Made by a program: the position numbers and the translations under genes
NCBI GenBank assembly: GCA_011049175.1
Contig: DSCJ01000001.1
Span: 1-42,270 of the forward strand
Origin: Bacteroidota bacterium
GTDB taxonomy: Bacteria > Bacteroidota > Bacteroidia > Bacteroidales > VadinHA17
Length of the DNA: 42,270 nt
Reading direction: 5' to 3'
The notes under the pieces: model-generated
The model's database searches: none
What the model saw: the letters and a program-made list of their open reading frames with translations, nothing else
Told to the model about the DNA's origin: nothing
Shown: piece by piece, positions 280-14,527 of the stretch
How positions within the stretch are numbered: the stretch's first letter is position 1
Layout: every line of letters starts with the position of its first letter

Positions 280-2526
280 ATGAGCACCCGCAGGGATTTT
301 ATTAAAATTGCCGCCACAGGATTGGGGGGATTGGCTCTGGGGGCGGGATCGGTTGCGTGGTTCCGGGGTACATCCAGATGGGCTGAAACGGCTGCAAAAG
401 CTGCGGCCGGTTTTCAGGGCAGGTTCACTACCTACTGTGAAATTTGTTTCTGGAACTGCGCCGGCTGGACCTATACGGATGAGGAAGGCAGAATTACCAG
501 AATTACAGGGAATGCCGGCGATCCTCATTGCCATGGAAGGCTTTGTCCGAGGGGTACCGGTGGTGTAGGGGCTTATTATGATGAGGATCGGTTGCGTACC
601 CCGTTGATCCGGAAAGAAGTAAACGGGAAGCAGAAATTTGTGCCTGCCGGATGGGACGAAGCTCTTGACCTGGTGGCTGAACGGCTGAAAGAAATTTCCC
701 GGAAACACGGTCCTGAAAGTATTGCCCTGTTCAACCACGGATCCCCGGGCGACCATTTCGGGCATCTTCTGAAAGCCATGGGTTCAAATAACATCACAGC
801 TCCTTCGTTTGCCCAGTGCCGGGGGCCCCGCGATACAGGATGGTATGTTACCTTTGGTACCGGAGTGGGATCGCCTGAACCTACCGATATACGTGATACC
901 CGGTGCCTGGTCCTGATCGGCTCCCATATCGGTGAGAACATGCATAACGGACAGGTGCAGGAAATGGCCGATGCCATTGACAGGGGGGCTACTTTGATTA
1001 CGGTCGATCCCAGGTTTTCCACCGCCGCATCAAAATCCAGGTTCTGGCTTCCGATCAAGCCATCCACCGATCTGGCCCTTCTGATGGCGTGGATCCATGT
1101 ATTGATCTATGAAGAACTGTACAACCGGGACTATGTGGAAAGGTATACCTACGGTTTTGATCTGCTGAAAGAGCATGTCTGGAACATGACTCCCGAATGG
1201 GCCTACGGCATTACCACCCTGCAACCTGCTCTGATACGTGAAACGGCCCGTCAGATGGCCAATGCAGCTCCTTCTGTTATTGTTCATCCCGGAAGACATG
1301 TGACATGGTATGGCGATGATACCCAGAGAGCACGGGCTATTGCCATTCTGAATGCCCTGCTGGGTTCCTGGGGATCGAGAGGAGGTTTCTATTTTGCCGA
1401 ATCGGTGCCGGTACCCAACTATCCGCATCCTGAATACCCCACACCGGCCTGGTCGTGGCAGGATCTGCAACGTGAAAAATATCCCCTGGCCGGGTTGGCT
1501 GTTTCCAATGTCCTTGTGGAGGCTTCTCTGAAGGAAACGGAAGCAAACAGAAGGATCAGGGCCTGGATGGTGGCCGGAACCAACCTTCCTCTGACTATTC
1601 CCCTGAAGGAAACCCTGGAGCAGGCTATGCAGGATGTTGAATTTTTACTGGTAGTGGATACCATGCCCATGGAGATTACCGGTTATGCCGATGTGGTGCT
1701 TCCGGAGTGCACCTATTTGGAAAGATACGATTCCCTTCGCTCGTCGGCCCACCGCGAACCGAACATTGCCCTTCGCATGCCGGCTGCCGAACCCATGTAC
1801 GATTCCAAACCTTCATGGTGGATGGCCAAACAACTGGGCGATCGCCTGGGTCTGGGAAGTTATTTTAATTACGCTGATTATACGGACGTGCTGGAATGGC
1901 AGTTACAGCAACTTGGCACTTCTCTGGAAGAGATGAAAAAAACAGGGGTTAAAAAATTCCCGCGCACCTCGGGTCCGCTGTACTTTCAAAAAGGTGAAAA
2001 CTATACTTTCAATACAAATACCGGGAAGATTGAGCTGTATGCCACTGAACTGGCAGCCACCGGGTACGATCCCATGCCGGTATATACTCCTCATGAGGAG
2101 CCTCCGCCCGGGTATTACCGTTTGATTTACGGAAGAGCCCCCATGCATACCTTCAGCCGTACGGCCAATAATCCGAATCTTACCGATCTGATGGACCAGA
2201 ACGATGTGTGGGTGAATCCGCGGGTGGCCAGACTCTGGGGATTAGAGAACGGACAGTATGTATACCTGAAGAATCCGGAAGGAATCGTTTCAAGTTTTCC
2301 TATCAGGGTGAGGATTACCGAGCGGATCAGATGGGATTCGGTATACATGGTGCACGGATTCGGTCACAGCTGGAAAAAACTGAGCCGCGCCTACGGAAAA
2401 GGGGCCAATGATACCGAGCTCATGTCGAAGGTGACCATTGACCCGGTGATGGGAGGAACCGGCATGCGGGGCAATTTTGTCACTTTTGTTACCGAAGAAC
2501 CTGTTGCAAAGGAGGCTGAATCATGA
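280..2526 (+). CDS. Tat-exported molybdopterin sulfur reductase, catalytic subunit (PsrA/PhsA-like)
   Basis: 748-residue member of the DMSO-reductase superfamily. The N-terminus has a twin-arginine signal (R4-R5 in STRRDFIKI, then a hydrophobic stretch), so the enzyme should act outside the inner membrane. A [4Fe-4S] motif is formed by C53, C56, C60 and C89, and C180 in the QCRGPRD segment is at the position of the molybdenum-coordinating cysteine of PsrA/PhsA enzymes. The C-terminal third is the molydopterin dinucleotide-binding domain. Length fits polysulfide or thiosulfate reductase and is shorter than TtrA tetrathionate reductase. It is the first gene of a seven-gene operon and overlaps the ferredoxin subunit by 4 bases. 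The downstream YeeE and rhodanese genes favour a sulfur substrate. Which one (polysulfide, thiosulfate or another) and the reaction direction cannot be read from the sequence. Confidence 0.88.
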   Translation: MSTRRDFIKIAATGLGGLALGAGSVAWFRGTSRWAETAAKAAAGFQGRFTTYCEICFWNCAGWTYTDEEGRITRITGNAGDPHCHGRLCPRGTGGVGAYYDEDRLRTPLIRKEVNGKQKFVPAGWDEALDLVAERLKEISRKHGPESIALFNHGSPGDHFGHLLKAMGSNNITAPSFAQCRGPRDTGWYVTFGTGVGSPEPTDIRDTRCLVLIGSHIGENMHNGQVQEMADAIDRGATLITVDPRFSTAASKSRFWLPIKPSTDLALLMAWIHVLIYEELYNRDYVERYTYGFDLLKEHVWNMTPEWAYGITTLQPALIRETARQMANAAPSVIVHPGRHVTWYGDDTQRARAIAILNALLGSWGSRGGFYFAESVPVPNYPHPEYPTPAWSWQDLQREKYPLAGLAVSNVLVEASLKETEANRRIRAWMVAGTNLPLTIPLKETLEQAMQDVEFLLVVDTMPMEITGYADVVLPECTYLERYDSLRSSAHREPNIALRMPAAEPMYDSKPSWWMAKQLGDRLGLGSYFNYADYTDVLEWQLQQLGTSLEEMKKTGVKKFPRTSGPLYFQKGENYTFNTNTGKIELYATELAATGYDPMPVYTPHEEPPPGYYRLIYGRAPMHTFSRTANNPNLTDLMDQNDVWVNPRVARLWGLENGQYVYLKNPEGIVSSFPIRVRITERIRWDSVYMVHGFGHSWKKLSRAYGKGANDTELMSKVTIDPVMGGTGMRGNFVTFVTEEPVAKEAES

Positions 2527-3056
2527 GATACGCCATGGCTATCGACACAAAAAAGTGTGTCGGCTGCAGTGACTGCGTTGTAGCCTGCCAGACCGAAAAT
2601 AACGTTCCCATAGGCTACTGCCGTGACTGGGTGGTGGAAAGCGTAGCCGGTACCTACCCGTTGGTTGAACTCGAGATCAGGTCGGAGCGATGCAACCATT
2701 GCGACAATGCCCCCTGCGTGCGATGTTGCCCAACGGGAGCCAGTCATATCGTGGAAGGGGGAGTGGTAATGGTAACCCCGAACAAATGCATTGGCTGCGG
2801 AGCCTGTATCCAGTCATGTCCCTATGATGCCCGTTATTCTCATCCTGATGGGTATGTGGATAAGTGTACCTTCTGTTATCACAGGCTGGTGAAGGGGGGA
2901 AGACCGGCCTGCGTGGAGGTATGCCCTACCAGATGCATGTATTTCGGCGATCTGGACCAACCCCAGTCGGAAGTATCGCAGATCCTGGCCCGAAGGAAAT
3001 GGAAAGTGCTGGCACCTGAGGCGGGAACCCGCCCGCAGGTGTATTTTTTGGTTTGA
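2523..3056 (+). CDS. Four-cluster [4Fe-4S] ferredoxin subunit (PsrB/PhsB-like)
   Basis: 177 residues with four cysteine groups typical of the electron-transfer subunit of complex iron-sulfur molybdoenzymes: CVGCSDC near the N-terminus, CNHCDNAPCVRCC, CIGCGACIQSC, and CTFC paired with CVEVCPTRC near the C-terminus. These should bind four [4Fe-4S] clusters and wire the membrane subunit to the molybdenum subunit. It has no signal peptide of its own; family members are co-exported with the Tat-bearing catalytic subunit. The start codon overlaps the end of the catalytic gene (ATGA), indicating translational coupling. Confidence 0.92.
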   Translation: MRYAMAIDTKKCVGCSDCVVACQTENNVPIGYCRDWVVESVAGTYPLVELEIRSERCNHCDNAPCVRCCPTGASHIVEGGVVMVTPNKCIGCGACIQSCPYDARYSHPDGYVDKCTFCYHRLVKGGRPACVEVCPTRCMYFGDLDQPQSEVSQILARRKWKVLAPEAGTRPQVYFLV

Positions 3057-3079
3057 TCTTTTACAACAAACGGTTTGTT

Positions 3080-4021
3080 ATGAAAGAAGAATTGTTTGTC
3101 AGCGGAAGGAATATACCCAACATTGATCCGCACCTGAATATCTGGCACTGGCAGATCCCGTTATACCTGTTTCTGGGTGGGCTGGCAGCAGGACTCATCT
3201 TTTTTGCCGGGTTGTATACCATTCTGAACAAAGAGAAAGAATTTCCCACGGCTGTTAAGCTGGCCAGCTTTATAGCCCCCCCTGCTCTCGTGATCGGCCT
3301 GTTCATGCTTTTTCTCGACCTGAAACACAAGATGTATTTCTGGCAGCTGTATACCACCTTCCGGATCGAGTCGCCCATGTCGTGGGGTGCATGGACGTTA
3401 ATGGCCATCACTCCCCTGTCATTTATCTGGAGTGCCAGTTACCTGAAAGAGGTGGTGCCGGGATGGGACTGGAAGAACAAATGGCTCGACCGCTTTGAAG
3501 CCTGGGTGATCGGTCACCGGAAACAACTGGCCTGGATTCAGGTGGTACTGGCGGTTATTCTGGGAGTTTACACAGGGATCCTGCTGTCGGCATTCAATGC
3601 CCGTCCCCTGTGGAACACTTCTATCCTGGGTTTTCTGTTTCTGACATCAGGACTTTCCACGGGAGCCGCCACCATCATGTGGATGTCAAAAAACCATACC
3701 GAGAGGAAGGTCTTTGGAAGGATTGATTTCCTGCTCATTGTGATCGAACTCTTTTTCATTACCCATATGTTGATGGGCTTTCAGGCGAGCACAGAGGTAC
3801 AGATACAGGCTGCATCCCTCTTTCTGGGAGGTGATTTTACGGTCTCGTTCTGGGTTTTTGTGATCGTTCTGGGTCTGGTTTTCCCCGGTGTACTGGAAGT
3901 GCTCGAGATTCGGGGATATCGCATACCCGTAGCTATTCCTGCCCTCTGCATTCTGATCGGAGGGCTGATTTTCAGGTTTATAATGGTAGAGGCCGGACAG
4001 GTAACAAGATATTTGTATTAA
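3080..4021 (+). CDS. NrfD/PsrC-type quinol-interacting membrane subunit
   Basis: 313-residue polytopic membrane protein beginning with a short hydrophilic segment and then about eight to nine hydrophobic helices. The first helix (IWHWQIPLYLFLGGLAAGL) and the spacing of the helices match the NrfD/PsrC family, which exchanges electrons with menaquinol and anchors the periplasmic reductase. No heme ligation pattern of a cytochrome b type is evident. The ATG at 3080 is preferred; an in-frame TTG at 3053 overlapping the upstream stop would add nine residues that look non-native. The next gene starts one base after its stop. Confidence 0.88.
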   Translation: MKEELFVSGRNIPNIDPHLNIWHWQIPLYLFLGGLAAGLIFFAGLYTILNKEKEFPTAVKLASFIAPPALVIGLFMLFLDLKHKMYFWQLYTTFRIESPMSWGAWTLMAITPLSFIWSASYLKEVVPGWDWKNKWLDRFEAWVIGHRKQLAWIQVVLAVILGVYTGILLSAFNARPLWNTSILGFLFLTSGLSTGAATIMWMSKNHTERKVFGRIDFLLIVIELFFITHMLMGFQASTEVQIQAASLFLGGDFTVSFWVFVIVLGLVFPGVLEVLEIRGYRIPVAIPALCILIGGLIFRFIMVEAGQVTRYLY

Positions 4022-4022
4022 A

Positions 4023-4568
4023 ATGGAACATCCAATGAAGGCACCAAACAGGAATGACAGGAGCACACGGTATCTGAATCCCTATCTGGGAGGGGTATTG
4101 CTGGGTTTGTTGCTGTTGATGACTTATTTTATTACCGGGCGCGGGCTGGGGGCCAGCGGGGCGGTAAAAAGTACCGTGGTGGCCACGGTGAGTGAGATTA
4201 CGCCTGATTATGCACACCGGTCGAATTACTACAGCCAGTTCATCAGCGATGATGAAAGTCCGTTGAACACCTGGCTGATGTTCGAGGTATTGGGAGTGCT
4301 GGCCGGGGCATTTCTTTCCGGAGCACTGGCCGGAAGATTGAAGCTCAAGGTGGAACATTCCCCGGGAATTACTGCCGGAACACGCCTGGCGGCTGCCACT
4401 CTGGGCGGTTTTCTGTTCGGACTGGGCTCGCAATTCGGACGGGGGTGTACCAGCGGGGCAGCCCTGAGCGGTTCGGCCTCTCTCGCCCTTTCGGGTTTCC
4501 TGGCTATGATGGGAATTTTTGGAACGGGTTATGCCATTGCATGGATATTCAGAAAGATATGGGTTTAA
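4023..4568 (+). CDS. YeeE/YedE (TsuA-like) sulfur transporter, first half
   Basis: 181-residue membrane protein of the YeeE/YedE (DUF395, sulfur transport) family. Its only cysteine, C142, sits in the signature GRGCTSG. In the characterised thiosulfate transporter TsuA, conserved cysteines in such motifs relay thiosulfate through the pore by S-H...S contacts. Single-chain family members carry two of these half-units; here the second half is the next gene, 19 bases downstream. A loop of about 45 residues between the first two hydrophobic segments is likely extracytoplasmic. Its place between an outward-facing sulfur reductase and rhodanese-fold proteins suggests import of a reduced sulfur compound or sulfane sulfur. 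Confidence 0.85.
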   Translation: MEHPMKAPNRNDRSTRYLNPYLGGVLLGLLLLMTYFITGRGLGASGAVKSTVVATVSEITPDYAHRSNYYSQFISDDESPLNTWLMFEVLGVLAGAFLSGALAGRLKLKVEHSPGITAGTRLAAATLGGFLFGLGSQFGRGCTSGAALSGSASLALSGFLAMMGIFGTGYAIAWIFRKIWV

Positions 4569-4587
4569 AAAGAAAAACAACCAGGAT

Positions 4588-5178
4588 ATGGGACCACTGA
4601 TACCACAGGGAGTTATTGATCCGGCATGGAACAATGTGTTCGCTCTGCTGATAGGTCTGGCCTTCGGATTTATTCTTGAGTCCAGCGGCTTTTCTTCCAG
4701 CAGGAAACTGGCCGGTGTTTTTTATGGTTACGACTTTGTTGTACTGAAGGTTTTCATGACGGCGGTCATGGTATGTATGATCGGACTGCTTTATTTCGAT
4801 TATATGGGATGGATGAAGCTTTCGTCCATTTATATATTGCCCACCTTTCTGTATTCGGTGATCATTGGCGGAGTGATTATGGGCTTCGGATTCATTCTGG
4901 GTGGATACTGCCCGGGAACAAGCTTCTGCGGCGCGGTTATAGGGAAAATAGATGCCATGTTTTTTACGGTGGGATTATATTTGGGTATTTTGTTTTTCTC
5001 GGTCCTGTATCCGGTATTTGAAAAAATTTACCATGCCGCGAACCTGGGACCGGTACAGGTGCATGATCTGATCGGTATTCCGGCTGCCTGGTTTGCTTTT
5101 GCCTTTCTGGTGGCCGGGTTGATTGCATTTTTTGTGGTTTCGAAAATCGAAGCACGGGCAAAGAAGGTTGAATATTAA
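4588..5178 (+). CDS. YeeE/YedE (TsuA-like) sulfur transporter, second half
   Basis: 196 residues from the ATG at 4588. The frame is open further upstream to 4519, but those residues are the shadow of the preceding gene. It contains the family motifs ESSGFSSSRKLAG (about 31-43) and GGYCPGTSFCG, with C108 and C114, plus C63 in a membrane helix. Together with the upstream gene it should form one complete pore with cysteines contributed by both halves. The next gene starts three bases after its stop, so all three membrane proteins and the rhodanese-like proteins are co-transcribed. Confidence 0.85.
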   Translation: MGPLIPQGVIDPAWNNVFALLIGLAFGFILESSGFSSSRKLAGVFYGYDFVVLKVFMTAVMVCMIGLLYFDYMGWMKLSSIYILPTFLYSVIIGGVIMGFGFILGGYCPGTSFCGAVIGKIDAMFFTVGLYLGILFFSVLYPVFEKIYHAANLGPVQVHDLIGIPAAWFAFAFLVAGLIAFFVVSKIEARAKKVEY

Positions 5179-5181
5179 CAC

Positions 5182-5805
5182 ATGATGATGAAGGATAAAG
5201 CATACTGGATCCTGGCAGCTGTCCTGCTGATGCTCGGAGGGGGACTGCTGGTTTTTTCACCTGCCGGAAAACCCGATGAACTGCCTCCTGAAGAGTTATT
5301 CCGGGCAATGCATGACTCCTCTCGATTCCTTCATACGGATGAAGTGACGCGAAGAATCATTGAAGAAGATCCTTCTTTATTGCTGATCGATGTTAGAAAC
5401 TCCGAAAGTTTCCGGTCGTTCAGCCTTCCCGGAGCCGTAAACATTCCTGTGACCGACCTTCTGTTGCCGGAATGGGAAGATTACCTGAGGGCACCGGGAA
5501 TGGAAAAGGTGCTGTATTCCAATGACGATATCATGGCCGGGCAGGCATGGATTCTTTGCACCAGGGTCGGTATAACCGATCTGTATATTATGCGTGGAGG
5601 CCTTAACCTGTGGGCCGATCATATCCTTGTTCCGGAAGCTCCTCCGGAAACCGCTTCCATGGAACTGACTGACCGGTACCGCTTCCGGCTGGGAGCCCGG
5701 TTGTATTTTACCGGAGGAACGGGTGCTGAGGTTTCGGTTATGCAGGCCGAACCCATTCCGGTAGTCAGGCGAGAGAAAAAAACTACCATCCAGGGAGGAT
5801 GTTAA
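5182..5805 (+). CDS. Membrane-anchored rhodanese-like protein with C-terminal GGC tail (1)
   Basis: 207 residues: a charged N-terminus, one membrane helix (about 8-27), a rhodanese fold (about 55-150, with LLLIDVRNSESF and GAVNIPV typical of its first half and IMRGGLNLW of its end) and a tail of about 55 residues. The loop after strand VLYSND (110-115) normally starts with the catalytic cysteine; here the position is S113. C126 lies in the following helix and not in the loop. The protein ends in RREKKTTIQGGC, so C207 is the last residue. The membrane helix with an inside-positive start predicts that the domain faces the periplasm, like the reductase. I infer a sulfur-binding or sulfur-carrying role based on the terminal cysteine; this has not been shown for this family. 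Confidence 0.8.
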   Translation: MMMKDKAYWILAAVLLMLGGGLLVFSPAGKPDELPPEELFRAMHDSSRFLHTDEVTRRIIEEDPSLLLIDVRNSESFRSFSLPGAVNIPVTDLLLPEWEDYLRAPGMEKVLYSNDDIMAGQAWILCTRVGITDLYIMRGGLNLWADHILVPEAPPETASMELTDRYRFRLGARLYFTGGTGAEVSVMQAEPIPVVRREKKTTIQGGC

Positions 5806-5820
5806 ATTAACGTAAGGAAA

Positions 5821-6444
5821 ATGAAAAACACGGCAAAAATCATCCTGACCTTACTTTTTGTTTTTATCGTTCTGGTTTTTCTGTTTTCAGGAAGGAATCA
5901 ACTCCGGTATACCCTCAGTGCGGAAGAAGTATTACTGGAAATAATAAAGGAAGATTATGACATGTCACCCCGGGAGGCCAATGAAATTTCTGTGAATAAA
6001 GAGAAAACAACGGTTTTTATTGATCTGCGTGATCCGGTGTTGTACGATAACGGACACCTGGACCAGGCTGTAAACATACCTTCCGGGAAACTGCTTGACA
6101 GGCACTTCATGAAGATGCTCCGGAATTTCCACGATGAAGGCCTGACGATGGTGCTTTACGGACAAGATCATCGCGAAGCTGTCGGTCCGTTTCTGTTTCT
6201 CAGACAAACGGGTTTTAACCGGTTAAAAATATTAACGGGAGGATATGATTATTTTCAACGTGTTGCTGCCTCAGGTAACGGGGTGGAAGAACTTCCTGAA
6301 CGGGTTTCTGAAGAGCCACGTTATGATTTTGCCGCTCTGATCGAAGAAATTGGGGGAGCCCCGGGTCAGGTTCAGCAGGCTATTGCACAGCCGGTGATCC
6401 CTGTAAGACGGGAGAAAACCACCACAATACAGGGAGGATGCTGA
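5821..6444 (+). CDS. Membrane-anchored rhodanese-like protein with C-terminal GGC tail (2)
   Basis: 207 residues and the same plan as the preceding protein: membrane helix (about 7-23), rhodanese fold (about 64-150; VFIDLRDPVLYDNGHL, AVNIPSG, LTGGYDYF) and a hydrophilic tail ending in RREKTTTIQGGC. The usual active-site cysteine position after VLY is G114. C207, the final residue, is the only cysteine in the whole protein. The two proteins are diverged along the domain but nearly identical in the last 14 residues, so the tail is under selection. The last gene of the operon, its TGA abuts the stop codon of the convergent NTPase gene with no spacer. Confidence 0.8.
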   Translation: MKNTAKIILTLLFVFIVLVFLFSGRNQLRYTLSAEEVLLEIIKEDYDMSPREANEISVNKEKTTVFIDLRDPVLYDNGHLDQAVNIPSGKLLDRHFMKMLRNFHDEGLTMVLYGQDHREAVGPFLFLRQTGFNRLKILTGGYDYFQRVAASGNGVEELPERVSEEPRYDFAALIEEIGGAPGQVQQAIAQPVIPVRREKTTTIQGGC

Positions 6445-6993
6445 TCAATTTGACCTGATGCAACTTTTCAGGATTTCCAGAAAACGGATCTCTTTTTCAG
6501 GTTCCTGTGCCGGATCCCAGATTGCAAGGGGTGAAAGGTGCCACTGATGCCATACCTTTTCCAACAGGGCAGTTCTGACCACAAGCAAAAGGTAAATTCC
6601 TGCATATGTTTGCCGGTGGTTGAGAAATGGACCCCAAAGTTTACCTGTCAGGTCAAATGGTCCGATTTCATCGATAACGATCAGGGAAGTTGTTTCAGGA
6701 GTGGCAGAACCAAGTATCCCGTAACCTTCTTGCATCGTTCCGGGATTGAACCAGAACCGGCCCAGCTTGATCCATCCTTCTGTGGCCTCTTTTCTGCAGA
6801 ATGGCAGGGAATGGTTCTCACCGATAAATTCCAGGTCGTATCCTGTATGGCGGTTCCGTTCGTAAAGGGCTGGGGTGGTCCATCCTTTCAGCCGGCCGGT
6901 ATAATCCGGCAGGTTGCCGATCACTGAACGCAGGGCAGTGGTTTTTCCCGAGCGGGTTTCTCCGGTAATAAAAAAGACCGGATGTGCTTCCAT
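6445..6993 (-). CDS. THEP1-like P-loop nucleoside triphosphatase
   Basis: 182 residues with a Walker A motif GETRSGKTT (11-19) and a Walker B strand SLIVIDEIGPFD, the pattern of the NTPase THEP1 family (DUF265). Members hydrolyse nucleoside triphosphates in vitro; the cellular role is unknown. It lies five bases downstream of the PLP enzyme gene and so probably shares its transcript. It is convergent with the sulfur operon. The family name is well supported, the biological function is not. Confidence 0.75.
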   Translation of the reverse strand: MEAHPVFFITGETRSGKTTALRSVIGNLPDYTGRLKGWTTPALYERNRHTGYDLEFIGENHSLPFCRKEATEGWIKLGRFWFNPGTMQEGYGILGSATPETTSLIVIDEIGPFDLTGKLWGPFLNHRQTYAGIYLLLVVRTALLEKVWHQWHLSPLAIWDPAQEPEKEIRFLEILKSCIRSN

Positions 6994-6998
6994 GTCCT

Positions 6999-8186
6999 TT
7001 AGTTCACCTGATCCAGCGCCTGGGAAAGATCACTGATCAGGTCTTCCACGTCTTCTATTCCAACGCTTAGCCGTACCAGCCCGTCGGTTATATCGGCCTC
7101 CAGGCGGGCTTCTGATGAAAGGGAGGCATGGGTCATGGAAGCCGGATGCTGTATCAGGGTTTCCACTCCACCGAGGGATACCGCCAGGGTGGCGAGCTGT
7201 ACCGAATTGATCATTTGTTCGCCCGCATCAAATCCTCCTTTCAGTTCAAAACTGATCATAGCTCCCGGTCCCCGCATTTGTTTTCTGGCCAGCTCATACT
7301 GCGGATGTGATTTGAGGCCGGGGTATCTTACCCACTTGATTTTCGGATGTTGTTCCAGCCAGTGAGCAATCGTTATGGCATTTTCCTGGGCTTTTTCCAC
7401 TCTGAGTGAAAGGGTTTTGATCCCTCTGAGCACCAGATAGGCCTGATGAGGGTCCATGTTGAAGCCCAGATTCACCATAATATGTCGCAGTTGATGATAA
7501 AGGGTTTCCGTTGATGTGATTATGATTCCACCCACAACATCCGCATGTCCGTTCACAAATTTGGTTACCGAATGAAACACAACATCGGCTCCGAGTTTCA
7601 GGGGGTTTTGCAGAAAGGGGCTTGAGAAGGTATTGTCTACTACCACCAGGATATCATGTTCATGGGCCAGTTTTGCACATGCCTCAATATCACTGAGCTT
7701 TATGGTAGGATTGGCGGGTGTTTCAAGATACAGCAGGCGGGTATTGGATTTGATAGCTTTTTTGATCAGGTCTGTGTCAGAAGTATCCACATAGCTGTAT
7801 TCCACACCGAACCGGGAGAAATCTTTTTCCATGATACTCCTGGAAGGTCCGTAAACGGATGAGGTGCTGATCATATGGGCTCCTGTTTGAAGCAGGCCCA
7901 TATAAATGGCGGACACCGCGCCCATTCCACTACCGGTGGCAATAGCCCCGAATCCGTTCTCCAGCACAGCCATGTTTTCTTCAAGGGCCTGCAGCGTAGG
8001 ATTCCCAATGCGAGTATAGATGTATCCTTTTTCTTTCCCGGCAAAACGGTTGGCTCCCTGCCGGGCATTTTCGAATGCAAAAGTGGATGTCTGATAAATA
8101 GGAACCGTGGCACTGCCAAAGTCATCGTCATAATGGCCTGCATGTACCATTTGCGTGTTGAAGCCTTTGTTTCGGATGTTTTTCAT
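6999..8186 (-). CDS. Transsulfuration-family PLP enzyme (cystathionine gamma-synthase/lyase or related)
   Basis: 395 residues of the Cys/Met metabolism PLP-dependent family. The Schiff-base lysine is K209 in SVTKFVNGHAD, and the phosphate-binding YTRIGNPT motif is at about 57-64. The family includes cystathionine gamma-synthase, cystathionine gamma-lyase, O-acetylhomoserine sulfhydrylase and methionine gamma-lyase. The cysteine that marks classical methionine gamma-lyases (in LYGCTF) is replaced here: VYGPSR has P114. Methionine gamma-lyase is therefore less likely, but the exact reaction remains open. The gene follows mlaF by 72 bases and precedes the NTPase by five. It could release or fix sulfide, which would fit the neighbouring sulfur operon, although the genes are on opposite strands. 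Confidence 0.85.
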   Translation of the reverse strand: MKNIRNKGFNTQMVHAGHYDDDFGSATVPIYQTSTFAFENARQGANRFAGKEKGYIYTRIGNPTLQALEENMAVLENGFGAIATGSGMGAVSAIYMGLLQTGAHMISTSSVYGPSRSIMEKDFSRFGVEYSYVDTSDTDLIKKAIKSNTRLLYLETPANPTIKLSDIEACAKLAHEHDILVVVDNTFSSPFLQNPLKLGADVVFHSVTKFVNGHADVVGGIIITSTETLYHQLRHIMVNLGFNMDPHQAYLVLRGIKTLSLRVEKAQENAITIAHWLEQHPKIKWVRYPGLKSHPQYELARKQMRGPGAMISFELKGGFDAGEQMINSVQLATLAVSLGGVETLIQHPASMTHASLSSEARLEADITDGLVRLSVGIEDVEDLISDLSQALDQVN

Positions 8187-11076: not shown

Positions 11077-11913
11077 TCAATATTCCCAGAGATCGTGTTC
11101 AAAGTTGAACAGCTCTTCTTTGATTCTTTCCGCTTCGAGCAAAGCAGACCGGCCGGTTTGGTACTGATTGATCAAACGGTTGTCGTACACGTTCGATTCT
11201 GCAATGATATAGCTGCTGAACCGGCGCTGCATGAACAGGTCGTCATAGGATATGCGGTGGGCGTCATTTGCCGGATTGAAAACTTCATGATTGGCCAGAG
11301 TGTTCCTGAAATCGGGGTAATAGGCCCAGAACACACGCACCTTATTGGTCATATTCGTTTCAGGATCGGTATAAATCCGGATGGGGCATATGCCCAGTAT
11401 TCTGACCCGCATGATGGAATGTTTTTTATCGAAATACCATTCTTCCCACAGCATATACTGCATTATTTCGGAAGTATTGATATCTCTTACAATGGTTGTT
11501 TCCTTGTACTCGCCGGTTTCAGGATCCTGGATGGTGATGGTTTCTTCCCCAGCTCCGAATTTTTTATTGATATCGTCCAGGGTGACTTTTTCCACCATAT
11601 TATACATATCGTCTCCGTTGTACACATCAATCACTCCGCTTTTGATCTCACCCATTAGTACATCGATCAGGCTGTAACGGTCTCCCATTGGGAATTTTGG
11701 GAAATACAGCACCTGGTTCATTTTTTCCCTCAAATCAACGATTCTCCATATCTGTTTTGACCACATGACATCGGCTTCCCGCAAATGGGGATATGGAATG
11801 GGTCTTTTGTCATGGATCCCTTTATCATACAGCCTTTTCACATCATCCTGAGCGGTGGCGAACTGACCGGCCACTATAATTAACAGGAGAATTAAGCCCA
11901 ATACTTTTTTCAT
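11077..11913 (-). CDS. gldN: GldN/PorN type IX secretion component
   Basis: 278 residues from the ATG at 11913; the frame opens four codons earlier (11925), but MKKVLGLILLLIIVAGQFATAQ is a clean signal peptide beginning at the inner methionine. The mature protein matches GldN/PorN, the periplasmic partner of the GldK ring in the type IX secretion system, with conserved blocks such as YPHLREADVMWSK, FWAYYPDFR and EVFNPAND. It is the last gene of the gld operon, following gldM by 16 bases, and ends before the terminator shared with manC. Confidence 0.9.
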   Translation of the reverse strand: MKKVLGLILLLIIVAGQFATAQDDVKRLYDKGIHDKRPIPYPHLREADVMWSKQIWRIVDLREKMNQVLYFPKFPMGDRYSLIDVLMGEIKSGVIDVYNGDDMYNMVEKVTLDDINKKFGAGEETITIQDPETGEYKETTIVRDINTSEIMQYMLWEEWYFDKKHSIMRVRILGICPIRIYTDPETNMTNKVRVFWAYYPDFRNTLANHEVFNPANDAHRISYDDLFMQRRFSSYIIAESNVYDNRLINQYQTGRSALLEAERIKEELFNFEHDLWEY

Positions 11914-11929
11914 GATATACACCATTTAA

Positions 11930-13561
11930 TTAGTTCAATTTTAAAATAACGGGAGGTAGTGGCCTTGTATTGCCATCGGGACCTACCGCCCTGATATCCT
12001 GGAAAACAACCTGATCTCCCCGACGCAGTCTGTCAAGCAGTTGCCTCTGTGCCTCAGTGATCCGGTTGCTGTTTGATTCTTCTTCCACGGTATAACCGCG
12101 GTCGTTTATGGATATCTTGAATCCGGTAATACGGAACGACAGTTCGAAATCAAAATCTTTCATAACGGCAAAAATCCCGGCCTGGGCCATCAGTTCGGCC
12201 TTGCTGATGTCTCCTCGTTCGCGTCCGGCCACCTGGGCAACAGGGTCGGGAACATTTTTGACCCGGAAAGGTTTTGGGGGCATGCGGCGCTGCACGCCGT
12301 CCACTTCAGCTATCACATTGACAATCACATCGGGTTTGCCGGCACGGCCCGGTCTGACAATATAGGAACTTCCGCTTACTTTCCGAATGGTTCCTCTGGA
12401 AAGGCTTACCCTGATTTTATCTTCAGCCACTCCCGGAACAGAAATATCTACGGGGTTATCCAATCCGGAATAGAATACGTTCATTTTTGTTGGAGAAACC
12501 ACAAGGCTGGCTTCAGCCACCTGGTAAGTTGACCTGAACGGGTAATCAACCATGGACCCGTCGGGCGCCTGCAGTCTGATCAGACCTCCCCAGCGGCGTG
12601 AACCCAGGCTTCCGGGCTTGACAGAATAGATACCCCGCCCGTTTTTGTCGATGGGTAATTCAGTAAAATCTCCAACCATCTGGTAAGTGACCACTCCGTC
12701 GGCAGTTACAGTGGAATCGTAATTCCCCACCATGATCCGGGGTTTCTGTGTGGTGTCGGTGGCGGCAATAAACACTTCGGCCCGGTATTCATTTCCCCGG
12801 AGAATGTAATTTGAATTGGGGATGACGGTGGGCACCAGCTTATTAAATTTGAAAGAACCGGCTTCAATCTGGTTGTACAGATAATTCAGCGTTTCCGCTT
12901 CGGCATTCCTGATATCCACCTGTATTTTAGAAAGAATGGTTACCACTGCCACCAGAGGTAAAGCATGGAAATTGTGTATTTCCCAGCTTACCCGGCTGCC
13001 GTCCTTTTCAGTATAATCATCCGTATTCAGGCTGTTGGCAATAGACTCTCTGATATTGACAGCCTCCACGGCTACGATATCGTTCATAATAAACTCCCTG
13101 AAATCAACTATCAGGGCTTTCAGGTCATAGGCTTTACCGTTCTGATCGGCACCGATCAGAACTTCTGAGGGAATGTTGTTTTCATCAATTTTCTTGATCT
13201 CGCGGGTATGGATCTGCCCTCCGGCTACAGCCTCACTGTCTTTGCCTTCGGCTTTGGTTACAATCTCTAACTTCAGGTCCTGAATGTAATTGATCAGTTC
13301 ATCGGCACGCTGTTTTACTTCATCTGCCCTGCGTTTCCATGGTCCGGCTTTAACGGGATTTGAAACCGCTTTTTCCGCAAAATCCTGATAAATCAGTTCA
13401 TTCTTGGCAACAAAGTTGGCGGTGGTTTTGGTCAACCCTTCGTCAACAAGTTTAAATGCTTCGACGGCTTCCTTTGATACATTCAGTGCCAGCAGGGCAG
13501 TAAGCACCAAATACATCATGCCGATCATTTTTTGTCTCGGGGTTTCTTTTCCGTGGGCCAT
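11930..13561 (-). CDS. gldM: GldM/PorM type IX secretion motor component
   Basis: 543 residues starting MAHGKETPRQKMIGMMYLV, the conserved N-terminus of GldM with a single membrane helix (about 13-30), followed by a long periplasmic region with several beta domains. GldM and GldL form the proton-driven inner-membrane motor of the type IX system, and the periplasmic part of GldM reaches the GldK/GldN ring. Length is normal for the family. It follows gldL by 48 bases. Confidence 0.93.
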   Translation of the reverse strand: MAHGKETPRQKMIGMMYLVLTALLALNVSKEAVEAFKLVDEGLTKTTANFVAKNELIYQDFAEKAVSNPVKAGPWKRRADEVKQRADELINYIQDLKLEIVTKAEGKDSEAVAGGQIHTREIKKIDENNIPSEVLIGADQNGKAYDLKALIVDFREFIMNDIVAVEAVNIRESIANSLNTDDYTEKDGSRVSWEIHNFHALPLVAVVTILSKIQVDIRNAEAETLNYLYNQIEAGSFKFNKLVPTVIPNSNYILRGNEYRAEVFIAATDTTQKPRIMVGNYDSTVTADGVVTYQMVGDFTELPIDKNGRGIYSVKPGSLGSRRWGGLIRLQAPDGSMVDYPFRSTYQVAEASLVVSPTKMNVFYSGLDNPVDISVPGVAEDKIRVSLSRGTIRKVSGSSYIVRPGRAGKPDVIVNVIAEVDGVQRRMPPKPFRVKNVPDPVAQVAGRERGDISKAELMAQAGIFAVMKDFDFELSFRITGFKISINDRGYTVEEESNSNRITEAQRQLLDRLRRGDQVVFQDIRAVGPDGNTRPLPPVILKLN

Positions 13562-13609
13562 AGTTCAGTAAATCGATTATTAACAATAGATTAGGTTATG
13601 TAGACCCTT

Positions 13610-14527
13610 TCAGGGATTTGATCTAACATTCATGGCAGCCAGCATATTTCCGTAAACGGTATTCAATGCGGCAAGATTCTGACTCAGCCTGGATACCTCT
13701 TCTCTGTATTTCTTCGTATCCTGGGCTGATTCCTTCAGATCATCAAGCATTTCATTCATTCCCGCATACATTTTCTCCGTGGCTTTGATTTGATCGTTTG
13801 TTCCCTGCAGCTGAAGTTCATAAACGGCGTTCAGTGCCGAAAGGTTTTTGTTGAGCGCCTCCAGCTGTTCGTTATATGACTTGCTGCCTTCTGAAATACT
13901 GAGAATGGAACCCGACAGACTTTCATAATTATTTCCCGACTGGGCAATAATGGTGGCCGTATTCTTGTAAGAGTCGGTTAGTTCTCCAACCGATTCCGCC
14001 AGTTTTTCTGTGGATTCCTGGTAGGCTCCGGAAAGTTTTTCAACCGATTCGGAAGCATTTTTCACTTTACCGACAAATTCGTTGGTTACCACCGATGCAT
14101 CGGCAATGTTTCCCAGTTTGGAGGCGGTCTGGCTAAGGTTCTCCATTCCCTGACCCAGCTTTCTGAAAAGATCAGGGGTTATTTCCGCTTTTTCGAGAAG
14201 GGCATCGAATTTTTCCAGAGCGGAGGAACCGTCTCCACCCCTGCTGCGGGCGGAAGCCGGTCTTAATTCTTCAGCCTCGTCTTCTGAAATACCGGCAAGT
14301 TCGGGATATACCAGTGTCCAGTCCACTTCTTCATGCAGGGGTTCGAAAGCAGAGAAAAAGAAGATGGTAGCCTCGGTAAGCAACCCGACCGTCAGGAATA
14401 ATCCGGCTGCTGGCCAGTGCTGAATTTTGAACAACGCGCCCACAATAACAACGGAAGCACCAAGCCCGTAAAGCTTAGCCATGAAATTTTTCCAGCCGCT
14501 GCTTTGTACTATTTCTGAAATGTTCAT
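13610..14527 (-). CDS. gldL: GldL/PorL type IX secretion motor component
   Basis: 305 residues with two membrane helices near the N-terminus (about 19-33 and 40-60) connected by KIQHWPAAG, and a long cytoplasmic coiled-coil tail rich in serine, glutamate and leucine. E52, in the second helix (GLLTEATIFF), corresponds to the membrane glutamate known to be important for proton-driven function in GldL. The tail ends in MLAAMNVRS. Confidence 0.92.
   Translation of the reverse strand: MNISEIVQSSGWKNFMAKLYGLGASVVIVGALFKIQHWPAAGLFLTVGLLTEATIFFFSAFEPLHEEVDWTLVYPELAGISEDEAEELRPASARSRGGDGSSALEKFDALLEKAEITPDLFRKLGQGMENLSQTASKLGNIADASVVTNEFVGKVKNASESVEKLSGAYQESTEKLAESVGELTDSYKNTATIIAQSGNNYESLSGSILSISEGSKSYNEQLEALNKNLSALNAVYELQLQGTNDQIKATEKMYAGMNEMLDDLKESAQDTKKYREEVSRLSQNLAALNTVYGNMLAAMNVRSNP

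Follow-up and report, generated by a model that had tools for sequence, protein, structure and literature searches.

Rhodaneses with a tail cysteine in place of the loop cysteine, paired with YeeE half-transporters, as candidate sulfur carriers

We analyzed a 42,270-nucleotide window of contig DSCJ01000001.1, from a Bacteroidota bacterium, in which two neighboring forward-strand genes encode membrane-anchored rhodaneses. Both proteins, RhdA (positions 5182 to 5805) and RhdB (5821 to 6444), lack the catalytic-loop cysteine and end in a GGC tail. An earlier reading of this DNA, made from its letters alone (the sequence-only reading), had proposed that they are a new kind of sulfur carrier. Comparison with their relatives suggests an undescribed kind of sulfur carrier, present in many bacteria next to a sulfur transporter. 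The proposal gains partial support from loss of the loop cysteine with retention of the tail cysteine across a large family, from a protein body placed in the periplasm by hydropathy, and from a tail of low confidence in a structure model. We put the probability at about 0.6 that RhdA and RhdB are membrane-anchored, periplasmic, swinging-arm sulfur carriers for the transporter YeeE, with the reactive cysteine moved from the loop to the tail.

The basic description of the two proteins held up. Both open reading frames (ORFs) are 207 residues long and lie where they had been placed, and each product has a rhodanese fold and one N-terminal membrane helix. The Pfam Rhodanese model (PF00581, cut-off 22.2 bits) scored 46.4 bits for RhdA and 43.3 bits for RhdB; it was the sole Pfam match of either protein at E 0.01, and the SoxY family was not matched. 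Hydropathy found a single hydrophobic segment, at the N terminus, in each protein. Alignments confirmed that the catalytic-loop cysteine is absent, its position being taken by S113 in RhdA (5518 to 5520) and G114 in RhdB (6160 to 6162). The C-termini are VRREKKTTIQGGC in RhdA and VRREKTTTIQGGC in RhdB, and the tails are encoded at 5767 to 5802 (RREKKTTIQGGC) and 6406 to 6441 (RREKTTTIQGGC), all on the forward strand. The terminal GGC was confirmed in both, as was C207 as the only cysteine of RhdB; RhdA has C126 in addition to C207. The two genes end a co-directional row encoding PhsA/PsrA-like, PsrB-like, NrfD/PsrC-like, YeeE1, YeeE2, RhdA, and RhdB proteins. There are five rhodanese-domain places in the genome, and the three outside this operon have the loop cysteine and no terminal cysteine. 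At L005, on contig C45 of the same genome, a rhodanese with the loop cysteine has a cysteine-rich C-terminus, QGGCGCDKNCCSTSA.

Of 117 genomes from the same family, 73 gave relatives when searched with RhdB, and a scan of genome contigs matched a single locus, from the same genus. The loci of the best RhdB matches contain 37 distinct ORFs ending in GGC, and a cysteine at the loop position is seen in none of them (one, from L018, is a fragment). An alignment of 22 members, selected for having the tail, contains eight invariant columns: D70, R72, P89, G139, and G140 in the fold and G205, G206, and C207 in the tail. A profile of these 22 (A1) was then used against 395 genomes of the phylum, and 70 loci were read, some places twice. 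This profile was built from tailed proteins only, and the counts derived from it, including the tally that follows, are therefore biased toward tailed relatives. The tally, drawn from the Bacteroidota loci read, covers 106 distinct rhodaneses that adjoin a YeeE half-transporter or are fused to one; proteins with identical last 120 residues were merged, and three near YeeE that do not end in cysteine (L094_16, L115_39, and L035_26) were dropped by name. A cysteine is present in the last two residues of 102 of the 106. The endings are GGC (68), EGC (18), GGC plus one residue (11), MGC (3), DGC (1), and FQC (1). There are three main tail classes: GGC; EGC, mostly KKKK(R/K)EGC and found with PsrABC; and MGC. 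In 76 of the 102, the stretch from the start of the domain to the C terminus contains no cysteine but that of the tail. At the loop position, the 106 proteins have Ser (55), Ala (28), Gly (20), Asp (1), or Cys (2), so that the loop cysteine is absent in 104. Four of the 106 are untailed: L016_11 runs into a contig end, L116_14 is frame-shifted (the next frame ends in KKKKREGC), and L010_0 and L015_5 are truncated RhdB proteins from genomes of one genus.

Rhodaneses not linked to YeeE differ. Among 55 of these, the loop cysteine is present in 36, replaced by another residue in 16, and unaligned in 3. Only four are tailed, two of them from operons cut at contig edges (L018 and L020) and two from genome G412 (L062). 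The 40 control regions were chosen by us from weaker profile rows and are not a random sample; one (L135) turned out to be YeeE-linked. As a background, we used ORFs of 150 residues or more that were called mechanically in 110 of the loci, 763 distinct ones in all. Apart from 83 with tail-family endings, 6 of the remaining 680 have a cysteine in the last two residues, compared with 102 of the 106. We therefore rejected the idea that the tail is a chance or local oddity. The tandem arrangement that had been described is real in this window. However, it is a local feature; the operons of most relatives read contain a single copy.

The transporter is encoded as two halves directly upstream. YeeE1 (4023 to 4568, forward strand) corresponds to the C-terminal half of YeeE/TsuA and is PmpA-like, with a conserved cysteine in GRGCTSG; YeeE2 (4588 to 5178, forward strand) corresponds to the N-terminal half and is PmpB-like, with a conserved cysteine in CPGTS. 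Pfam Sulf_transp (PF04143) matched both above its cut-off. YeeE1 aligns to positions 238 to 326 of the TsuA model and YeeE2 to positions 5 to 108, in each case with a score under the cut-off. The mechanical ORF of YeeE2 begins at a TTG at 4519, and alignment with relatives gives a conserved start, MGPL, at 4588.

Because the first profile included the tail, we also searched from the transporter side, using a profile of YeeE2 only (A2) on 247 genomes, which is unbiased in this respect. It gave 64 places, of which 43 are strong (E ≤1.6e-50; 41 genomes), 19 weak (E from about 1e-8 to 9e-7), and 2 intermediate. At each of the 43 strong places, a rhodanese with a cysteine in its last two residues is fused to YeeE2 or encoded immediately downstream of it in the same direction. 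No tailed rhodanese was found at the 17 weaker places read (the 2 intermediate and 15 of the 19 weak; L204 is cut by a contig end). At 9 of the 15 weak places, a nearby ORF of 469 to 614 residues matches the rhodanese profile at 16 to 57 bits and has no terminal cysteine. YeeE2-rhodanese fusions are about 400 residues long, and most end in GGC or GGC plus one residue; there are 31 such proteins, and all 31 are tailed. The sequence-only reading had stressed the reductase as the partner. PsrABC, however, is one of several neighbors. Judged by gene order, the constant partner of the tailed rhodaneses is the YeeE pair, with one counterexample genome, G412.

Three neighbor modules occur beside the YeeE pair and the tailed rhodanese: a Psr/Phs-type molybdoenzyme, an octaheme cytochrome, and an active secreted rhodanese. 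The pair and the tailed rhodanese are what all three have in common. The row PhsA-PsrB-NrfD-YeeE1-YeeE2-Rhd is found in 14 of 20 larger regions; a fifteenth is cut within NrfD by the start of its contig. The other five have YeeE1, YeeE2, and a rhodanese ending in GGC plus one residue, with no PsrABC within the stretch. In all 22 fusion-type loci compared, a multiheme cytochrome (520 to 565 residues where called) and a cytochrome b are encoded upstream of YeeE1. One representative of the 22 was assigned to the tetrathionate-reductase octaheme family TIGR04315 (572 bits; cut-off, 375), and a single solved relative was found (1sp3). L105 (2560 to 4140) and the 22 fusion-type loci share an operon of octaheme tetrathionate-reductase-family cytochrome, cytochrome b, YeeE1, and YeeE2-rhodanese fusion. 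The literature searched contained no mention that we found of such a cytochrome paired with a YeeE transporter.

At L114, L115, L198, and plasmid 1 of Gemmatirosa kalamazoonensis, there is no reductase in the stretch read, and the YeeE pair occurs with a rhodanese ending in MGC or RRGC. In the last three, a two-domain rhodanese with a signal-peptide-like start (judged by eye) and a loop cysteine (YCHIGQQ) is encoded upstream; the gene call shows the corresponding ORF of L114 as broken or split. The Gemmatirosa megaplasmid, from the phylum Gemmatimonadota, was reached by a plasmid search with an EGC-type rhodanese. It encodes YeeE1, YeeE2, and a rhodanese with the end RRGC and the loop VLYSEGG. 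A plasmid search with a fusion protein gave only two distant partial matches, one annotated DUF6691. A reductase as the constant partner was therefore rejected: some tailed rhodaneses stand with an octaheme cytochrome, which belongs to a different family, and others have no reductase of either kind in the stretch read. Four loci with YeeE only (L044, L047, L051, and L054) have three further adjoining genes. These encode a 344- to 363-residue rhodanese (with two Pfam stretches in L047), a protein of 353 to 393 residues (with a weak RHS-repeat match in L047), and a 140- to 144-residue ORF resembling a degenerate half rhodanese.

Hydropathy gave five hydrophobic segments in YeeE2, with a basic last loop. 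Each of the seven fusions examined has a basic linker plus a further, sixth hydrophobic segment between YeeE2 and the rhodanese. The method is crude: it detects no more than three segments in YeeE1, and in one of the seven fusions it adds a borderline segment. With basic loops taken as inside, the rhodanese body and tail would be periplasmic. The PhsA/PsrA-like protein (280 to 2526) begins with STRRDFIK, which we take by eye to be a twin-arginine-type signal, and the predicted side of the rhodanese would be the side of this protein.

The transporter cysteines are conserved. A GC-x-SG-type motif is present in 92 of 92 distinct YeeE1 relatives scored, and the CPG motif is present in 93 of 93 distinct YeeE2 relatives. 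Estimated from the model-aligned ranges, these cysteines fall near C293 and C91 of TsuA; by a rough estimate made with no direct alignment to TsuA, the C22 position falls on a Ser in YeeE2. PmpA and PmpB have conserved cysteines corresponding to TsuA C293 and C91 (PMC11582611). In TsuA, the relay runs from C293 to C91 to C22 and then to C17 of YeeD, the "fourth cysteine" at the cytoplasmic exit (PMC11073785). No solved structure matched the YeeE2 profile at E 0.01, and the equivalence to C91 and C293 therefore rests on the model ranges and on the statement about PmpA and PmpB.

The tails are basic, with a mean net charge over the last 22 residues of +4.7 (−1 to +10), versus +0.6 (−6 to +9) in unlinked, untailed rhodaneses. 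An AlphaFold model of RhdA, from four sequences, had a mean predicted local distance difference test (pLDDT) score of 56.8 and a predicted template modeling (pTM) score of 0.53. It has a rhodanese-like core (block means of about 65 to 81), and residues 146 to 207 are below 50. The best Foldseek match of the model was BH2092 (E 2.2e-06), followed by named rhodanese domains such as 3tp9 (E 1.8e-05).

It had been noted that the folds of RhdA and RhdB have diverged and the tail has not, and this holds quantitatively. In 10 tandem pairs, identity over the nine residues that precede GGC is 84% for tails of one genome versus 43% for tails of different genomes, and none of 20,000 permutations was as high. 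The cores of the same pairs are 26.0% identical within and 25.8% between genomes (p 0.39). The tail permutation ignores relatedness, and the cores, of equal relatedness, give no signal. G005, G009, G026, and G027, which have no complete tail pair, were left out. Recent gene conversion as the whole cause of the alike tails was rejected, because, where the residues are identical, the codons differ in 43 of 106 cases; G412 is the only genome among the tandem pairs with identical tail codons. Older gene conversion confined to the tail is possible. The simplest reading is that both tandem tails have a common docking partner.

These observations fit a carrier model. The reactive cysteine would sit at the end of a flexible tail, usually rich in lysine or arginine (GGC, EGC, MGC, and others), and the body without its loop cysteine would serve for docking. 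The tail cysteine could then swing back and forth, meeting a sulfur enzyme of the periplasm on one side and, on the other, a YeeE1/YeeE2 heterodimer at its periplasmic mouth. Depending on the operon, the enzyme would be the Psr/Phs complex, the octaheme cytochrome, or the active secreted rhodanese. At the mouth, sulfane sulfur or thiosulfate would be exchanged with the two conserved cysteines of the transporter, and the tailed rhodanese would be the periplasmic counterpart of YeeD. We infer, then, that the tail cysteine carries sulfur and docks at YeeE, with the periplasmic enzyme of the operon as the other partner. For the direction of transfer, we lean toward delivery into the transporter; import and export are indistinguishable from sequence. 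A more specific version, which we offer tentatively and would not bet on, makes the tail cysteine the outermost of a relay into YeeE1/YeeE2. Sulfur would cross as a protein-bound persulfide from cysteine to cysteine, with the molybdoenzyme, octaheme cytochrome, or active rhodanese plugging into one carrier-transporter unit. If true, this would be a sulfur group-translocation system conserved in the Bacteroidota and beyond.

Several findings weigh against the carrier model. L083 and L084 (G240 and G147, of one genus) are YeeE-linked and carry both a loop cysteine (LLYCE) and an EGC tail, and RhdB of the sister genomes G026 and G027 lacks the tail, which RhdA there retains. Tailed homologues with an intact loop cysteine, and tail loss in orthologues, had been named beforehand as results that would refute the proposal; both exist, only as rare exceptions. 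The low confidence of the RhdA tail is as a flexible arm would give, but the shallow alignment could also be its cause. The known cytoplasmic acceptor family, TusA, had no match at E 0.001 in the genome under study or, counting it, in 31 of the 41 strong-YeeE2 genomes (six of the others had a match above the cut-off and four a weaker match). With TusA mostly unmatched, an import model has no account of the step on the cytoplasmic side. Finally, G412 (99% complete) has two GGC rhodaneses behind NrfD, and neither the YeeE2 nor the YeeE1 profile matched in it; the same YeeE2 search matched in each of the five other genomes. At this locus (L120; contig 4, 1 to 11000), PhsA-PsrB-NrfD is followed directly by the two rhodanese genes, and the operon is at a contig end. 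The tails, KKVKVEVEEGGC, share identical codons and have little net positive charge. A tail can thus exist without the transporter, and no other single case argues as strongly as G412 for a direct role at the reductase.

That role, with the tail cysteine mainly supplying PsrA/PhsA or the octaheme enzyme with sulfur derived from polysulfide or thiosulfate and YeeE being simply part of the same regulon, seems to us rather unlikely. Sud is proposed to bring sulfur to the Psr of Wolinella, and a reductase is indeed close by in many operons: Psr/Phs genes lie directly upstream in the 14 regions and at further loci, all 22 fusion loci have the octaheme cytochrome, and G412 has PsrABC with tailed rhodaneses and no YeeE match. 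However, the two reductases come from different families, and the fusions are with YeeE2 in 31 of 31 cases. Moreover, L044, L047, L049, L051, L054, L114, L115, L198, and L217 of Gemmatirosa have the YeeE pair and a tailed rhodanese with neither reductase in the stretch. The system might instead run outward, with YeeE releasing cytoplasmic sulfane sulfur or thiosulfate and the tail cysteine catching it at the exit and passing it on to the reductase, for use in respiration or detoxification. YeeD, the YeeE carrier already known, is at the exit side (PMC11073785), and the carrier here is periplasmic by the topology estimate. In addition, TusA is mostly unmatched, and by its rough TsuA-model position the cytoplasmic third cysteine is a Ser in YeeE2. 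Against this, we know of no exporter in the YeeE family, and loci with a secreted loop-cysteine rhodanese and no reductase better fit loading of the tail from outside. We consider an outward system unlikely.

A structural or regulatory tail would carry no sulfur: its cysteine would form a disulfide with the transporter, as a gate, or with a second tail, or would be an attachment point. A single exposed cysteine after Gly-Gly and a basic stretch could act as a tether, and the tails are alike within a genome. However, no C-terminal sorting or lipidation motif was recognized by eye, with no search aimed at them, and the operon genes for sulfur chemistry, the rhodanese fold, and the YeeE cysteines point to sulfur handling. 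This makes such a tail quite improbable. Least of all do we credit the idea of vestigial rhodanese bodies and a tail with no function in common. It would account for loss of the catalytic cysteine but is contradicted by the conservation of a near-universal tail cysteine over deep divergence and two phyla, and by the fusion to the transporter.

The candidate carriers resemble known ones in part. PspE and Sud, periplasmic rhodaneses of a single domain, share the rhodanese fold, and the structures 2jtq (PspE) and 1qxn match the family profile; we take 1qxn to be Sud, which the structure listing calls sulfide dehydrogenase. Unlike these proteins, the tailed family has no loop cysteine, a conserved C-terminal cysteine, and its own membrane helix. 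SoxY is periplasmic and carries sulfur on a cysteine in a Gly-rich C-terminal tail, GGCGG (PMC6067878). RhdA and RhdB, predicted to be periplasmic, end in GGC, with low pLDDT for the tail in the RhdA model; a reactive cysteine on a flexible arm would be the analogous arrangement. They differ from SoxY in the rhodanese fold, the membrane anchor, a tail ending at or just after the cysteine, and, in relatives, fusion to a transporter half. SoxZ had no match among the nine proteins of 280 to 8186, the only part of the genome scanned for it. YeeD/TsuB is a small TusA-family carrier with one reactive cysteine, dedicated and sometimes fused to YeeE (PMC11073785). The tailed rhodanese is also small, YeeE-linked (with G412 as the exception), and sometimes fused. 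In contrast to the cytoplasmic, TusA-fold YeeD/TsuB, it is periplasmic by the topology estimate, has a rhodanese fold, and is fused via an extra membrane segment; no TusA-fold match was found in the operon proteins. YeeE1 and YeeE2, as C- and N-terminal halves with one conserved cysteine each, resemble PmpA and PmpB (PMC11582611), but YeeE2 is a separate class by profile score, and the 17 weaker YeeE2-like places, which are from the same phylum and presumed nearer PmpB, lack a tailed rhodanese. By these analogies, the tailed rhodaneses would act like SoxY and YeeD while being members of neither, as fold, side, and partners differ.

We found no description of a tailed rhodanese family in the open-licence PMC literature searched. 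Related associations have been reported. In Desulfurivibrio, Psr is co-encoded with a secreted triple-rhodanese sulfurtransferase, and YeeE/YedE has been proposed to receive sulfur from polysulfide or from periplasmic sulfurtransferases (PMC12142623). Cable bacteria have periplasmic rhodaneses and YeeE (PMC13047784), and Dethiobacter has rhodanese proteins beside octaheme cytochromes (PMC10376724). The route by which SoxYZ-bound periplasmic sulfur reaches the cytoplasm is described as unknown (PMC11582611). With a YeeE-paired, repeatedly fused carrier whose movable arm bears a single conserved cysteine, such a step would be testable by one mutation. The family would also be a case of an enzyme fold whose catalytic residue has in effect shifted to a tail. 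As a sequence mark, a rhodanese without its loop cysteine that ends in GGC or EGC beside YeeE could help to find sulfur-trafficking operons with proteins that would go by no more than the name "rhodanese-like."

A quick tree was made with the tails removed, a midpoint root, and 49 controls picked by us; L094_16, L115_39, L035_26, L016_11, L018_3, L148_5, L158_8, and short rows were left out. Every YeeE-linked rhodanese used lies on one side of a branch from the 49 controls (SH-aLRT 91). The fusion of L079 falls among the EGC class, apart from the other fusions. Because it is in a different clade, the YeeE2-rhodanese fusion probably arose at least twice. The loop-cysteine proteins L083 and L084 are nested in the tailed family, and on this quick tree with its chosen controls, one loss of the loop cysteine with a later regain is likelier than many losses.

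The remaining genes of the operon encode the reductase. The PhsA/PsrA-like molybdopterin oxidoreductase catalytic subunit (280 to 2526, forward strand; Pfam Molybdopterin, 127 bits) has PhsA as its best NCBIfam match, at 434 bits, under the cut-off of 694. It is followed on the same strand by a PsrB-like 4Fe-4S electron-transfer subunit (2523 to 3056; Pfam Fer4_11) and an NrfD/PsrC-like membrane subunit (3053 to 4021; Pfam NrfD, 150 bits), both in the same place in relatives. Genes beyond RhdB have the opposite orientation. A small NTPase_1-family protein (6445 to 6993, reverse strand; Pfam) lies between RhdB and a methionine gamma-lyase-like pyridoxal phosphate (PLP) enzyme (6999 to 8186, reverse strand, convergent with the operon), for which the family model scored under its cut-off. 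ORFs of nearly the same length as this enzyme (392 to 393 residues) adjoin the operon in L038 and L041. Farther along the window, at 11077 to 14527 on the reverse strand, are genes that we take to resemble the gliding-motility/type IX secretion genes gldN, gldM, and gldL.

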